Shown: one piece after another, positions 3,064-64,000 of the stretch | Layout: each line of letters opens with the position of its first letter | Numbering within the stretch: position 1 is the stretch's first letter | Assembly (NCBI GenBank): GCA_003290465.1 | Contig: CP030759.1 | Location: forward strand, 1-64,000 | Reading direction: 5' to 3' | Source of the DNA: Candidatus Sumerlaea chitinivorans | GTDB lineage: Bacteria; Sumerlaeota; Sumerlaeia; Sumerlaeales; Sumerlaeaceae | Length of the DNA: 64,000 nt | The notes under the pieces: model-generated | The model's database searches: none | What the model was told of the DNA's origin: nothing | The model's input: only the letters and a program-made list of their open reading frames with translations | Program-made: the position numbers and the translations under genes

Positions 3064-3756
3064 CTACTTGCCCACAATCGGCCGGATCCGCTCCACGAAG
3101 CGCTGAGTGATTTCCTGAGGCCGAGTGATGGCGCCCCCCACCACGACAGCGTAGGCACCCATCTCCAAGGCCCGCGCCACTTGATCCGGATAGTGATAGC
3201 GACCTTCCGCAATGACTGGGACGCGCACGTGAGCAAGGATTTCCGCGAGAAGCTCAAAATCCGGTCCCTCCGTTTTGCGTGAATAAGGTGTATAGCCCGC
3301 GAGCGTCGTGCTCACCGTGTCTGCGCCAAGGCGTTCCGCCTCGATGGCTTCCTCGAGGGTCGAGCAGTCCGCCATGACGGGCAAATCGAGCTCCTCGTGG
3401 ATTCGAGCGATAAGTTCTCGGAGAGTTTCGCCCTTGGGGCGCGGGCGCGACGTCGCATCGAGTGCAATCATGTCGCTCGCTGCACGCGCAATTTCCTGCG
3501 CCTCCTCAAACGTGGGGGTAATGTACACCTCGCTCCCCGGGTACTCCTTCTTGTAGATCCCGATAATGGGTAGTTGGACGGTGGCGCGGATGGCCCGGAT
3601 ATCAGCCGGCGTATTGGCCCGAATGCCCACGGCCCCGCTCATTTGCGCCGCGAGAGCCATCCGCGCCATGATCTCCGACCCGTGCAACGGCTCATTTTCT
3701 AATGCCTGACACGAGACAATCAACCCACGGGGGAAAATTTCCGTCACTTTCCGCAC
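3064..3756 (-). CDS. nanE: N-acetylmannosamine-6-phosphate 2-epimerase
   Basis: This 230-residue TIM-barrel enzyme interconverts ManNAc-6-P and GlcNAc-6-P in sialic acid/ManNAc catabolism. Family hallmarks are [16 protein letters not shown] near the N-terminus, [56 protein letters not shown] and [13 protein letters not shown] favour GTG at 3756: it has GGAAAGGG 8-9 bases upstream and gives the family's usual N-terminus, while the in-frame TTG at 3774 has no ribosome binding site. It lies about 100 bases downstream of the GH94 gene on the same strand and may be co-transcribed. No nanA or nanK is visible nearby, so the route feeding it is unclear. Confidence 0.9.
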
Positions 3757-59273: not shown

Positions 59274-59343
59274 TCCCAAAAGACTTTTCGGTATCCACTT
59301 CGAATAGTTGCAGTCCCGCTCGGCGATTTGGCATTTCGGTGAT

Positions 59344-60483
59344 ATGTCGCACGGCATAAATGCATCCCGCTGTCTCTGCGTGGGCCACGCGCTGAAGGAA
59401 ACGCTAAGCGCCTCCGAAGTACGTGACCTCCTCGTCAGCGTGTGCGAAGAGGCCGGATGCGTGGTCACGGGCCGGCTATGCGTTAGCGACGGTGGAGATG
59501 GGTTTCTTGAGGCATGGCGAACGCTCGATTCCCAAGCTCGGCTTGTCCAACTTTCCGCCCCTGATGCCCGCGGACGCCCCATCGCCACCTATTACCTGAT
59601 GAATGAGGCCGCACAATATGCCGTCGTCGAGAGTGCGCAAATCATCGGGTTGCAGCGCATTGCGCCTCCAGACCGCGCGATCCTTCGTTCCTCCTCCGCT
59701 GGAATTGCAGACGTGTTGGCTGATGCGTTGAACCGAGGAGCCAAGGTCGTATATGTCGGTGTGGGCGGTACAGCCACGTGTGATGGTGGTTATGGTTTTC
59801 TTGGGCGCCTTGCGCAAATTTTGAGGCTTGTTCTTGAGCGGCCTTGGGAAGAACTTACTGCCCATGCGTTGCCCGTTGCGAAACTTCCCGTGGGTGACCT
59901 CCGCGCTCGGCTTTCCGGCATTCGACTTGTGGGCTGTCTGGATGTGGAGAATCCGTTATGTGGCCCCAACGGCGCAGCGCACCAATTCGCTCCTCAGAAA
60001 GGTGCAACTGCTGAGGAGGTGGAGTGGCTCGATGCGGCCATTGCTCGTTGGGCCGCGGACATCGAGGCGAGTCTGGGCGAGGCCTTGCAAGATCGTCCGG
60101 GGGCGGGCGCGGGCGGTGGACTTGGCTTTGCCCTCATGACACTGGGAGCGGAAATCCGAGCCGGAGCAGGCGTTTTTCTCGAGCATGCCACGTTCAAGGA
60201 TGCGCTTGCAGCGTCCGATCTCGTTCTCACAGCCGAGGGGAAATTCGATCACACGAGCTTACGTGGGAAAGCACCATGGCGTGTTGCCCTTGCAGCACGC
60301 GAGATTGGCAAAGCCGCAGTGATCCTCTGTGCCCGCAGTGATCACGATGCAATGGAAGAGGCGCGCCAGCAGGGCGTGACAGTGGTGCCCTTCGCTCAGG
60401 ATCTTGCATTCGAGGAAGCTTGCGTGCGAACGCCGGAACTCATCCGTGAAGCTCTCATATCCCTTCTTAATTCTGTAAGGTAG
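59344..60483 (+). CDS. Glycerate kinase, GlxK type
   Basis: This 379-residue enzyme of the GlxK/GarK type phosphorylates glycerate, linking glycolate/serine-type pathways to glycolysis. It has SDGGDGFLEAW, YVGVGGTATCDGGYGFL, GCLDVENPLCGPNGAAHQFAPQKGA (quoted in part: DVENPLCGPNGA), GAGGGLGFALMTLGAEI and VLTAEGKFDHTSLRGK. The usual N-terminal APDSFKGSLSA reads GHALKETLSA here, an atypical version of the motif. ATG 59344 has only GGTGA upstream; an in-frame codon 12 residues earlier lacks support. No partner genes are adjacent. Confidence 0.85.
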   Translation: MSHGINASRCLCVGHALKETLSASEVRDLLVSVCEEAGCVVTGRLCVSDGGDGFLEAWRTLDSQARLVQLSAPDARGRPIATYYLMNEAAQYAVVESAQIIGLQRIAPPDRAILRSSSAGIADVLADALNRGAKVVYVGVGGTATCDGGYGFLGRLAQILRLVLERPWEELTAHALPVAKLPVGDLRARLSGIRLVGCLDVENPLCGPNGAAHQFAPQKGATAEEVEWLDAAIARWAADIEASLGEALQDRPGAGAGGGLGFALMTLGAEIRAGAGVFLEHATFKDALAASDLVLTAEGKFDHTSLRGKAPWRVALAAREIGKAAVILCARSDHDAMEEARQQGVTVVPFAQDLAFEEACVRTPELIREALISLLNSVR

Positions 60484-60557
60484 TTTTTCCGAGTTCTTGA
60501 CTCACCCACAGGCACACTCGACGACGGCAACGGGTGGCTGCGCTTGATGCCATAGTC

Positions 60558-60612
60558 TTGTCACATTTTTGACGCGACCTTGTCACAAGCTCGTCACGAA
60601 CGTGTCACGTGC
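60558..60612 (+). promoter_or_regulatory. Five-copy Pho box before pstS
   Basis: Five consecutive 11-bp units begin at 60558: TTGTCACATTT, TTGACGCGACC, TTGTCACAAGC, TCGTCACGAAC and GTGTCACGTGC. The GTCAC core recurs at 60560, 60582, 60593 and 60604, with a degenerate copy in phase at 60571. The 11-bp spacing and core match PhoB Pho boxes. TATTCT at 60633-60638 may be the -10, 20 bases past the last unit. Phosphate starvation control of the pst operon is expected. Confidence 0.85.
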
Positions 60613-60725
60613 TTTGCCCGCCGGATTTTCACTATTCTAAAAGTGGAGAAGTGCGATGTCTCCCCTCGCGCACGAGGGAGTGGCACTTGGTCAGAAGTGA
60701 CAGGTACGGAAAGGATCCTTTGGTG

Positions 60726-61724
60726 ATGATTAAGTGCGTTGTTCTTACCGCCATAGCTGTGTTGAGCTTTGGGCTGGGGGGCGTCACGACGTTGTCAGCC
60801 CAGCCGCTCAGAGTTACGATTGATGGATCGAGCACCGTCTACCCCATCACCGAAGCGGTTGCCGAGGAGTTCCAAAAGGCGAAGAGTGGGAACATCCATG
60901 TCACGGTTGGAATCAGTGGCACAGGAGGGGGATTTAAAAAATTCCTGAGGGGCGAGACGGATATCTGCAACGCTTCGCGCCCCATCCTTCAGCAAGAGTT
61001 TGATGCTGCCAAAAAAGCGGGAATTGAATTCATTGAGCTGCCAATCGCTTTCGATGCGCTTTCTGTGGTGGTGAATCCTGAGAACACGTGGGCGGACACC
61101 CTAACCACGGCCGAGCTCAGGCTCATGTGGGAACCCGCTGCGGAGAAAAAGATTACTAACTGGAAACAGGTTCGGCCGACCTTTCCGGATGCACCCCTCA
61201 CCCTGTACGGTCCGGGGGCAGATAGTGGAACTTTCGATTATTTCACAGAAGTCATCGTTGGCAAAGCGAAAGCAAGCCGGGGTGACTATATGCCCAGCGA
61301 AGACGATAACGTGCTCGTGCAGGGGATCACCAAGGACAAGAATGCGCTCGGCTACTTTGGATTCGCTTACTTCCTTGAAAACAAGGATAAGCTGAAACTC
61401 GTCGCAATCGATGCAGGCAAGGGGCCCGTCAAACCTTCCGAAGAGACCGTGATGAAGGGCTCGTACAGCCCACTGTCGCGTCCCCTTTTTATCTATGTGA
61501 ATGTGAAATCCCTCGATAGGCCAGAAGTGCGCGAATTTGTCGAGTTCTACCTCACTCACGTGGGCAAGCTCGCGAAGGAAGTGGGCTACATTCCGCTACC
61601 CGCAGACTCCTACGAAAAAGCCAAGAAGCGTCTCACAGGGCGAGAGAGCGGCACCGCTTTTCTCGGCCATTCAGAAGCTGGCATGCATGTGGATGAGATG
61701 TTCGCCCGACAACTTCATCGCTAA
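60726..61724 (+). CDS. pstS: Phosphate ABC transporter substrate-binding protein
   Basis: This 332-residue periplasmic protein binds phosphate and delivers it to PstCAB. It has a Sec signal peptide ([21 protein letters not shown]), the phosphate site [38 protein letters not shown], and [18 protein letters not shown] 60726 (GTG 60723) has AAAGGA upstream; the frame extends 39 codons further without a signal peptide. The Pho box lies about 115 bases upstream. It is the first gene of pstSCA(B). Confidence 0.94.
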
Positions 61725-61751: not shown

Positions 61752-62714
61752 ATGACAACACACGCTGACACGCCAATTAGCCTACAGTTTAAATCGGATC
61801 CAAAAGCGCTTGCACTTGAAACGCGACGGGCGATTCGGAGGGCAAAGCTCGCCGATCGGCTGATTGAGGTGCTGCTCGCGTGCGCGGCCGCGGTGAGTGT
61901 GCTTGTGACGGCTGGGATTGTATTCGTTCTGCTTCGTGAGGCGGCCACCTTTTTCTCCCATGTGTCGATCGTGGAATTCCTGACAAGCACGGACTGGACC
62001 CCTCTCTTTGCAAACCCAAAGTACGGGATCCTGCCGTTGATCACAGCGACGGCAATCACAAGTGCCATTGCGCTTGCCGTGGCGATGCCCCTCGGATTGG
62101 TGATTGCGATTTATCTGAGCGAATTCGCGTCAGCGCGCATTCGCGAACTCCTCAAGCCAACCCTCGAGCTTCTCTCTGCTGTCCCCACCGTCGTTTTCGG
62201 CTACTTTGCGCTCTTACTCGTCACCCCGCTTCTCCAGCGCTTCATTCCAAACGTGGCGGGCTTCAACATGCTGAGTGCGGGTCTCACCATGGGGCTCATG
62301 ATTGTGCCCTACATTAGCTCTCTGAGTGAGGACGCGATGCACGCAGTGCCCATGCTTTTGCGTGAAGGGTCGTATGCACTTGGGGCCAATCGCCTTACGA
62401 CTGCAATCCGCGTGGTGATTCCTGCGGCTCTTTCGGGCATAGGCGCCGCATGTGTGCTCGCGGTGTCGCGCGCCATCGGCGAGACGATGATTGTGGCCAT
62501 CGCGGCGGGTATGCAACCGCGGTTTATTCTCGATCCGCGCGAGGGCGCTGCCACACTGACCGCTTTCATTGTTCAAGTCTGCTTAGGCGATGCCCCTTTC
62601 GGAAGCATTGCCTACCAGAGTATTTTTGCCGCAGGGCTCACACTCTTCCTGCTGAACCTCGGCTTCAATGCAATCGCTCACTATCTCCGACAGAAGTACC
62701 GTGAGGCATATTGA
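61752..62714 (+). CDS. pstC: Phosphate ABC transporter permease PstC
   Basis: This 320-residue inner-membrane permease has six core hydrophobic segments and the EAA-type loop ALGANRLTTAIRVVIPAALSG that contacts the ATPase. Other family parts are LGLVIAIYLSEFAS, LSAVPTVVFGYFAL and AVSRAIGETMIVAIAAGMQP. ATG 61752 has GAAGGCG eight bases upstream. The 8-codon longer frame from 61728 lacks such a site. It ends one base before pstA. Confidence 0.94.
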   Translation: MTTHADTPISLQFKSDPKALALETRRAIRRAKLADRLIEVLLACAAAVSVLVTAGIVFVLLREAATFFSHVSIVEFLTSTDWTPLFANPKYGILPLITATAITSAIALAVAMPLGLVIAIYLSEFASARIRELLKPTLELLSAVPTVVFGYFALLLVTPLLQRFIPNVAGFNMLSAGLTMGLMIVPYISSLSEDAMHAVPMLLREGSYALGANRLTTAIRVVIPAALSGIGAACVLAVSRAIGETMIVAIAAGMQPRFILDPREGAATLTAFIVQVCLGDAPFGSIAYQSIFAAGLTLFLLNLGFNAIAHYLRQKYREAY

Positions 62715-62715
62715 G

Positions 62716-63624
62716 ATGGACAATGTGCGTGGACGCGTCGCACGACGCAGACAAATTGATCGAGCATTTTCCGTAATGGGGGCGGTCTGTACGTGCGTTG
62801 GACTTCTGACGATCGCGATTCTTCTTGGTGCATTGGCGTGGCAGGGACTTGGCAGGATCACGTGGCAATTCCTGACCTCGTTCCCCTCGCGTTTCCCAGC
62901 TAAAGCGGGAATTCTCTCCGCACTTGTTGGGACGGCGCTGGTTACACTCGTTACCGTGATCGTTACAATACCAGTTGGCGTCGCCACTGCGATCTACCTT
63001 GATGAATTTGCACCGCGAAGTCGGTTGGCGAGTTTCATCGAACTGAACATCGCCAACCTCGCCGGCGTACCCAGCATCGTCTATGGTCTACTCGCTCTCG
63101 GGCTGTTCGTCTATCGCATGAAATTAGGCCATAGTATTGCTGCTGCTGGTCTCACTCTTGGTTTGCTTGTGCTTCCGATCGTGATTGTGGCAAGCCGCGA
63201 AGCTCTGCGTTCCATCCCGCAAGATATCCGGGAAGCCTCCTTTGCGCAGGGGGCGACGCGGTGGCAGACCGTGCGGCACCACCTTCTTCCCTATTCGCTC
63301 AGCGGGATTGCAACAGGGGTGATCATCGCAATTTCACGGGCCATGGGCGAGACCGCTCCTCTTGTTACGGTGGGAGCACTCACGTTCATCGCCTTCTTGC
63401 CCCCCTCGCCTTTGATGGACACGCCACCTTTTGTAAATTTTGCGTGGCTTGAGTCACCCTTCACGGTGCTACCGATCCAGGTCTTCAACTGGATCTCCCG
63501 TCCGCAAAAAGAATTTCACGAGTTAGCCGCCGCTGCAGCCCTTCTTCTGATTTTAGCTACGTTACTCATGAATAGTTTGGCGATTTGGCTACGTCGGCGG
63601 GCGCGCCGCCGCACGTCGTGGTAA
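62716..63624 (+). CDS. pstA: Phosphate ABC transporter permease PstA
   Basis: This 302-residue second permease has the family features SALVGTALVTLVTVIVTIPV, IYLDEFAPRSRLASFIE, LAGVPSIVYGLLALGLF, SFAQGATRWQTVRHHLLPYS (coupling loop) and ISRAMGETAPLVTVGAL. ATG 62716 immediately follows the pstC stop; GTGAGG lies about eight bases upstream. A basic tail (RRRARRRTSW) ends it. pstB follows after 15 bases. Confidence 0.94.
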   Translation: MDNVRGRVARRRQIDRAFSVMGAVCTCVGLLTIAILLGALAWQGLGRITWQFLTSFPSRFPAKAGILSALVGTALVTLVTVIVTIPVGVATAIYLDEFAPRSRLASFIELNIANLAGVPSIVYGLLALGLFVYRMKLGHSIAAAGLTLGLLVLPIVIVASREALRSIPQDIREASFAQGATRWQTVRHHLLPYSLSGIATGVIIAISRAMGETAPLVTVGALTFIAFLPPSPLMDTPPFVNFAWLESPFTVLPIQVFNWISRPQKEFHELAAAAALLLILATLLMNSLAIWLRRRARRRTSW

Positions 63625-63639
63625 GGAGGTATGGAAGAC

Positions 63640-64000
63640 ATGATCGCAACGCTTTGGCAAACCGCGGTGCTGGAGGAACCACAAAATTCCATGGTCATTG
63701 AAATGGAGCCATTAAACTCACAAACTGACGAAGTGCCTGCTGAGGACGCTGCTCCTAAGGCGATGGTCCGCAATCTGAATTTTTGGTATGGCTCCCACCA
63801 AATCTTGAAGAACATCAACGCCACTTTCTACGAGCGGCGCGTGACGGCTTTGGTTGGTCCATCGGGGTGCGGCAAAACCACGCTACTACGCTGCTTCAAT
63901 CGCATGCATGACCTGTACGAAGGCAACCGCTACGAAGGCGAGATCCTGCTGCAACCAGACGGGATCAACATTGTGGCCCCGAGCACGGATCCAATTGAGA
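63640..64000 (+). CDS. pstB: Phosphate ABC transporter ATPase PstB (cut by window end)
   Basis: The ATP-binding subunit of the phosphate importer, running off the window with 120 codons visible. The Walker A motif is [20 protein letters not shown] ([10 protein letters not shown]), preceded by [23 protein letters not shown] sits directly before ATG 63631, so ATG 63640, nine bases downstream, is the more likely start. About 40 extra N-terminal residues ([19 protein letters not shown] and on) precede the core. Signature and Walker B lie beyond the window. Confidence 0.93.

Follow-up and report, generated by a model that had tools for sequence, protein, structure and literature searches.

The Pho box is the textbook phosphate-starvation operator, and structures of the regulator PhoB with DNA and sigma-70 exist. 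A passage of PMC4415409 defines the Pho box by direct repeat units of 11 nt, the number of which is variable. For E. coli, a passage of PMC1906773 gives the rule that Pho boxes lie 10 bp upstream of the -10 element, and published structural models are said, in part of PMC10294691, to support a strict distance from the Pho box to the core promoter. We scored the repeat units of the window strictly, as matches to the heptamer TTGTCAC at exact 11-bp steps. By the same scoring the pstS promoter of E. coli MG1655 counts as five in-phase units (7, 7, 5, 7 and 6 matches), the fifth overlapping its -10 element. The E. coli ugpB promoter holds seven (6, 7, 6, 5, 5, 4 and 6), some of them degenerate, and phoB scores 6, 7 and 5.

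Here we describe a similar array in Candidatus Sumerlaea chitinivorans (genome G000, a single 3.29-Mb contig). The window, meaning the whole stretch of 64,000 nucleotides that was analysed, corresponds to G000:C1:1-64000. In it, a glycerate kinase gene (59308-60483) is followed by 242 bp without an assigned gene and then by pstS, pstC, pstA and pstB; pstS, pstC, pstA and the full-length pstB all exceed their NCBIfam cut-offs. The array (60558-60612) is located inside this 242-bp gap (Table 1). We infer that the repeats constitute a multi-unit Pho box that would be bound by a PhoB-like regulator and activate pstSCAB under phosphate shortage. We give this reading a probability of about 0.87, because the array scores highly, pstSCAB lies downstream, relatives carry arrays as well, the genome encodes a PhoB/PhoR-like pair and the array is like that of E. 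coli. The operator would thereby be extended to a phylum known in our searches almost only from metagenome assemblies. Among the literature matches listed for Sumerlaea or Sumerlaeota with Pho terms, none is plainly on the Pho regulon of the phylum, and the word Sumerlaeota is absent from all matches listed for that name.

Table 1. Coordinates of the repeat units, the candidate -10 element and the pst genes in the window
Feature	Sequence or product	Position	Strand	Remarks
Possible weak sixth unit	ATGCCATAGTC	60547..60557	+	ambiguous; ATGCCAT, 5/7 by a looser consensus
Pho unit 1	TTGTCACATTT	60558..60568	+	heptamer TTGTCAC, 7/7
Pho unit 2, degenerate	TTGACGCGACC	60569..60579	+	heptamer TTGACGC, 5/7
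Pho unit 3	TTGTCACAAGC	60580..60590	+	heptamer TTGTCAC, 7/7
Pho unit 4	TCGTCACGAAC	60591..60601	+	heptamer TCGTCAC, 6/7
Pho unit 5	GTGTCACGTGC	60602..60612	+	heptamer GTGTCAC, 6/7
Possible -10	TATTCT	60633..60638	+	predicted; 24 nt after the unit 5 heptamer, 20 nt after the last 11-bp unit
pstS	phosphate-binding protein	60726..61724	+	TIGR02136, 306 bits, cut-off 207; start codon as chosen
pstC	permease	61752..62714	+	TIGR02138, 255 bits, cut-off 196
pstA	permease	62668..63624	+	TIGR00974, 275 bits, cut-off 193
pstB, 5' part in window		63631..64000	+	full gene G000:C1:63631-64506; TIGR00972, 364 bits, cut-off 343

The Pho repeats at this position are confirmed. Direct repeats of a CTGTCAT-like heptamer, here approximately (C/T)TGTCA(C/T), recur every 11 bp; all units are strong except the degenerate unit 2. 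The earlier note had described five in-phase 11-bp units, one of them degenerate, and this description holds. The array sums to 31/35; among 40 dinucleotide shuffles of the entire window, both strands included, the highest sum is 24. A motif-free measure, the self-match at lag 11, reaches its window maximum at 60549 (33/55; none of these 40 shuffles exceeds 31), although this test is weak, lag 12 scoring 34/54 elsewhere in the window (57678). Adjoining sequence may hold additional units. The ambiguous unit at 60547 has a score, 5/7, that is reached at about 3 % of window positions, and a further ambiguous unit at 60613 matches 4/7.

The array precedes a phosphate-uptake gene not only in the window but also at orthologous promoters. 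A PstS match was found in 25 of the 40 genomes of the phylum, our own included, and the nearest pstS loci among named genomes belong to a Candidatus Sumerlaeota (73 % identity) and a Sumerlaeaceae MAG (68 %). Within the family, four of eight genomes (G000, G029, G030 and G034) carry either the PstS of the window itself or one with more than 60 % identity to it. Upstream of the orthologous pstS, G029 (locus L002) and G030 (L003) each carry four units in phase (7, 7, 6 and 7 matches), and G034 (L085) has two units only (7 and 6). The last strong unit reads GTGTCACGTGC in the window, CTGTCACGTGC in L002 and CTGTCACGTGA in L003, and the stretch TGTCACGTG of window unit 5 is common to the last units of both relatives. 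In five pstS loci from less closely related members of the class (L086-L090), the 330 nt upstream show no clear array by eye. Since relatives carry four, four and two units and these distant loci no clear array, the Pho array belongs to the family, with a unit number that varies within it.

A 30-position sequence model built from the arrays of the window, L002 and L003 was run over the 40 phylum genomes. Its best matches are its own three source arrays (E 1.5e-5, 7.3e-5 and 1.5e-4), which holds by construction, so that the test says no more than that the phylum contains nothing equally similar; the next match stands at 0.035, and no further strong array was found in the 40 genomes. Inspection of 8 of the 15 matches at E 0.03-1 revealed boxes of two or three units at three places, namely at G029 phoB, before an Alginate_exp gene in G030 and before a G000 gene that we take to resemble carB, the others being unclear. 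Deriving a Pho regulon from a genome-wide two-unit pattern was rejected as too noisy: with up to two mismatches, G000 yields 259 matches, barely more than the background of 198 for the reversed control. One such match, G000:C1:471703, was discarded as it appears by eye to be rather a TGTGA-N6-TCACA palindrome, presumably a CRP-like motif.

The best PhoB match in G000 (G000:C1:1369649-1370395) scores 224 bits, below the curated cut-off of 296, and the gene directly after it encodes a kinase scoring 262 bits as PnpS (cut-off 400) and 245 as PhoR (cut-off 334). With scores below the cut-offs, the two are putatively assigned as a PhoB/PhoR-like pair by rank and adjacency. Translations compared by eye show that E. 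coli PhoB residues R193, H198, R201, R203, T217 and R219, which we take to be DNA-contact residues, are identical in the G000 protein. Orthologs of the PhoB-like protein are present at E <1e-40 in all eight family genomes, and the recognition segment is nearly identical in the seven that were read (L198 is absent from this comparison). Pho-like boxes are also seen upstream of phoB itself. Those of G000 (two units; L148, about 3521-3542) and G029 (three units; L178, 1490-1522) are on the opposite strand; G034, G033 and, in weak form, G035 (L193, L194 and L197) have them on the same strand. At the E. coli phoB promoter, antisense-strand half-sites mediate auto-repression according to a passage of PMC6194859.

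As a side observation, G000 has no stand-alone PhoU. Its sole PhoU-family match, at 36.6 bits a weak one (cut-off 130), belongs to a Na/Pi-cotransporter that contains a PhoU domain (Pfam Na_Pi_cotrans and PhoU; L186, 2029-4260). One weak match each is found in G029, G030 and G034, which have the same pstS, and in G035; a full PhoU is present in G031 and G033, and a PhoU match is listed for all but one of 14 controls, the exception being B. subtilis. In G034 (L189, near 4376) and G033 (L191, near 3938), a two-unit Pho-like box on the minus strand lies close to where the Na/Pi-cotransporter-PhoU gene starts, and in both a common GTTGACGA follows the last heptamer at a distance of about 12-13 nt. 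Around the corresponding genes of G000, G029 and G030, the two best-scoring places on the strands scanned do not include such boxes.

In the mechanism that we propose for the pstS array, PhoR would phosphorylate the PhoB-like regulator, whose winged-helix domains would each occupy one 11-bp unit, in head-to-tail order along one face of the DNA. The promoter-proximal protomers would then assist RNA polymerase at a weak promoter, the -10 element of which is probably TATTCT at 60633. Extra units would provide higher occupancy and cooperativity, and a graded binding of PhoB across the units is plausible by analogy with published multi-unit sites.

The one odd feature of the array is its distance to the candidate -10 element downstream, about 14 bases more than usual. 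An element some 20 bases past the last unit, further than usual, had already been pointed out from the sequence, and our comparison agrees: measured from the last strong heptamer, TATTTT of E. coli pstS begins at 10 nt and TATTCT of the window at 24 nt. As controls we used 78 of 80 surveyed pstS loci, omitting the two labelled Sumerlaeota; the 25 whose array scored 4.4 or more were kept and the other 53 dropped. In 21 of the 25, a TAnnnT starts exactly 10 nt past the last strong heptamer, one locus has a second TAnnnT at 20, and L017, L031, L045 and L051 have none at 4-30 nt. The control set is narrow because 20 of the 25 are betaproteobacterial by our sorting of the labels; 18 of these 20 show the offset of 10, as do three of the five other rows. 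At looser thresholds the 10-nt peak persists (29/56 and 34/74) and is joined by another at 21 nt (8/56 and 10/74), a class that we read as control loci with a degenerate last unit.

None of the four Sumerlaeaceae pstS promoters has a TAnnnT at 10 nt, and the window thus departs from the E. coli spacing rule. The offset is 24 in the window and, for TATGGT, 24 in L085 and 18 in L003; the weaker TATCAG at 23 is all that L002 offers. In the window, 0.57 % of positions carry a TAnnnT, and two of four promoters would share one offset by chance with a probability of about 0.005 over 27 offsets, a rough estimate that assumes an independence which relatives do not have. Part of the shift could reflect a degenerate last unit, as in the 21-nt class; none of the family offsets equals 21. 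Taking the 60613 unit as a bound, degenerate sixth unit that restores the E. coli geometry was rejected as a poor fit, the -10 then being at 13 nt and not 10. A general 24-nt rule for the Pho-like boxes of the family was likewise rejected, since offsets differ among them: TAnnnT lies at 13 in L176 (or TATAAC at 25), at 14 in L177 and at 39 in L189, with none within 4-39 nt in L191 and none within 4-44 nt at the phoB boxes L193, L194 and L197. Because these other boxes share no offset, the shifted geometry of the Sumerlaeaceae pstS promoters, drawn from four predicted -10 elements, is put forward only as possible. The -10 spacing is a rule of promoter geometry and not a part of the operator; being outside the operator definition, it leaves the array classed as a Pho box.

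A promoter scan of the + strand from 60440 to 60760 found no sigma-70-type promoter at the threshold used. With a 17-nt spacer from the -10 at 60633, the -35 slot would occupy 60610-60615 (TGCTTT), just below the last heptamer, whereas the E. coli slot overlaps the last heptamer. We tentatively suggest, while considering it rather unlikely, that the Sumerlaeaceae array ends just above the -35 rather than taking its place, as the E. coli array does, with the -10 about 23-24 nt past the last heptamer in three of four promoters. The contact between PhoB and RNA polymerase would then be displaced upstream by roughly one and a third helical turns, which would make for another geometry of activation by PhoB. 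The strict spacing between Pho box and core promoter would apparently be broken in these promoters. If this is true and start sites agree, they would constitute a natural test of RNA polymerase recruitment by PhoB-type regulators.

PhoB can act as activator or repressor according to site position (a passage of PMC10294691), and repeats bound by PhoB might mainly repress transcription or block RNA polymerase, the true promoter then lying upstream of or within them. By eye, TTGACG in unit 2 is like a -35 hexamer, but the position 17 nt past it holds CGTCAC and no -10-like hexamer; together with the empty + strand scan and the comparable E. coli pstS array, which ends 10 nt before its -10, this makes a repressive role very improbable. 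Marginally less probable still is an array owned by another regulator of the OmpR/PhoB family with 11-bp repeats, whether ArcA-like or the CopR-like one of G000. ArcA sites likewise comprise two to five repeats at 11-bp spacing in a passage of PMC3798270, and G000 does have a second OmpR/PhoB-type regulator (G000:C1:1424111). This regulator, however, ranks highest as a heavy-metal CopR-type, the downstream gene set is pstSCAB and the heptamer fits the Pho consensus. We regard chance repeats without function as the least credible explanation: single two-unit matches are common in G000, but the array outscores all of the shuffles and arrays stand at the same place in three relatives. A multi-unit Pho box serving pstSCAB is the reading that we prefer.

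The Pho-box reading of the earlier note stands as regards the in-phase array before pstSCAB, its occurrence in relatives and the distant -10, and is not supported where it took five units as a departure from E. coli, in which pstS itself has five and ugpB seven. The window array and that of E. coli pstS are alike in their heptamer (TGTCAC-like and TGTCAT-like, respectively), their 11-bp phase, their one degenerate unit and their location upstream of pstS. Most best arrays at the 80 pstS loci surveyed have two to four units, and five is the high end of the range, not another kind. PhoP direct repeat units of Streptomyces, in a passage of PMC7866108, also form several in-phase 11-bp units, some degenerate, with a different consensus (GTTCACC). 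The triple repeats of cyanobacterial SphR are in-phase 11-bp units too, again with a different consensus (CTTAACCT; a passage of PMC1906773). Three to five direct repeats, mainly at 11-bp spacing, make up the majority of ArcA sites and are suggested to set a concentration-sensitive occupancy (a passage of PMC3798270); these differ from the window array in regulator and regulon. The window array is an ordinary multi-unit Pho box, a new instance of a familiar operator type.
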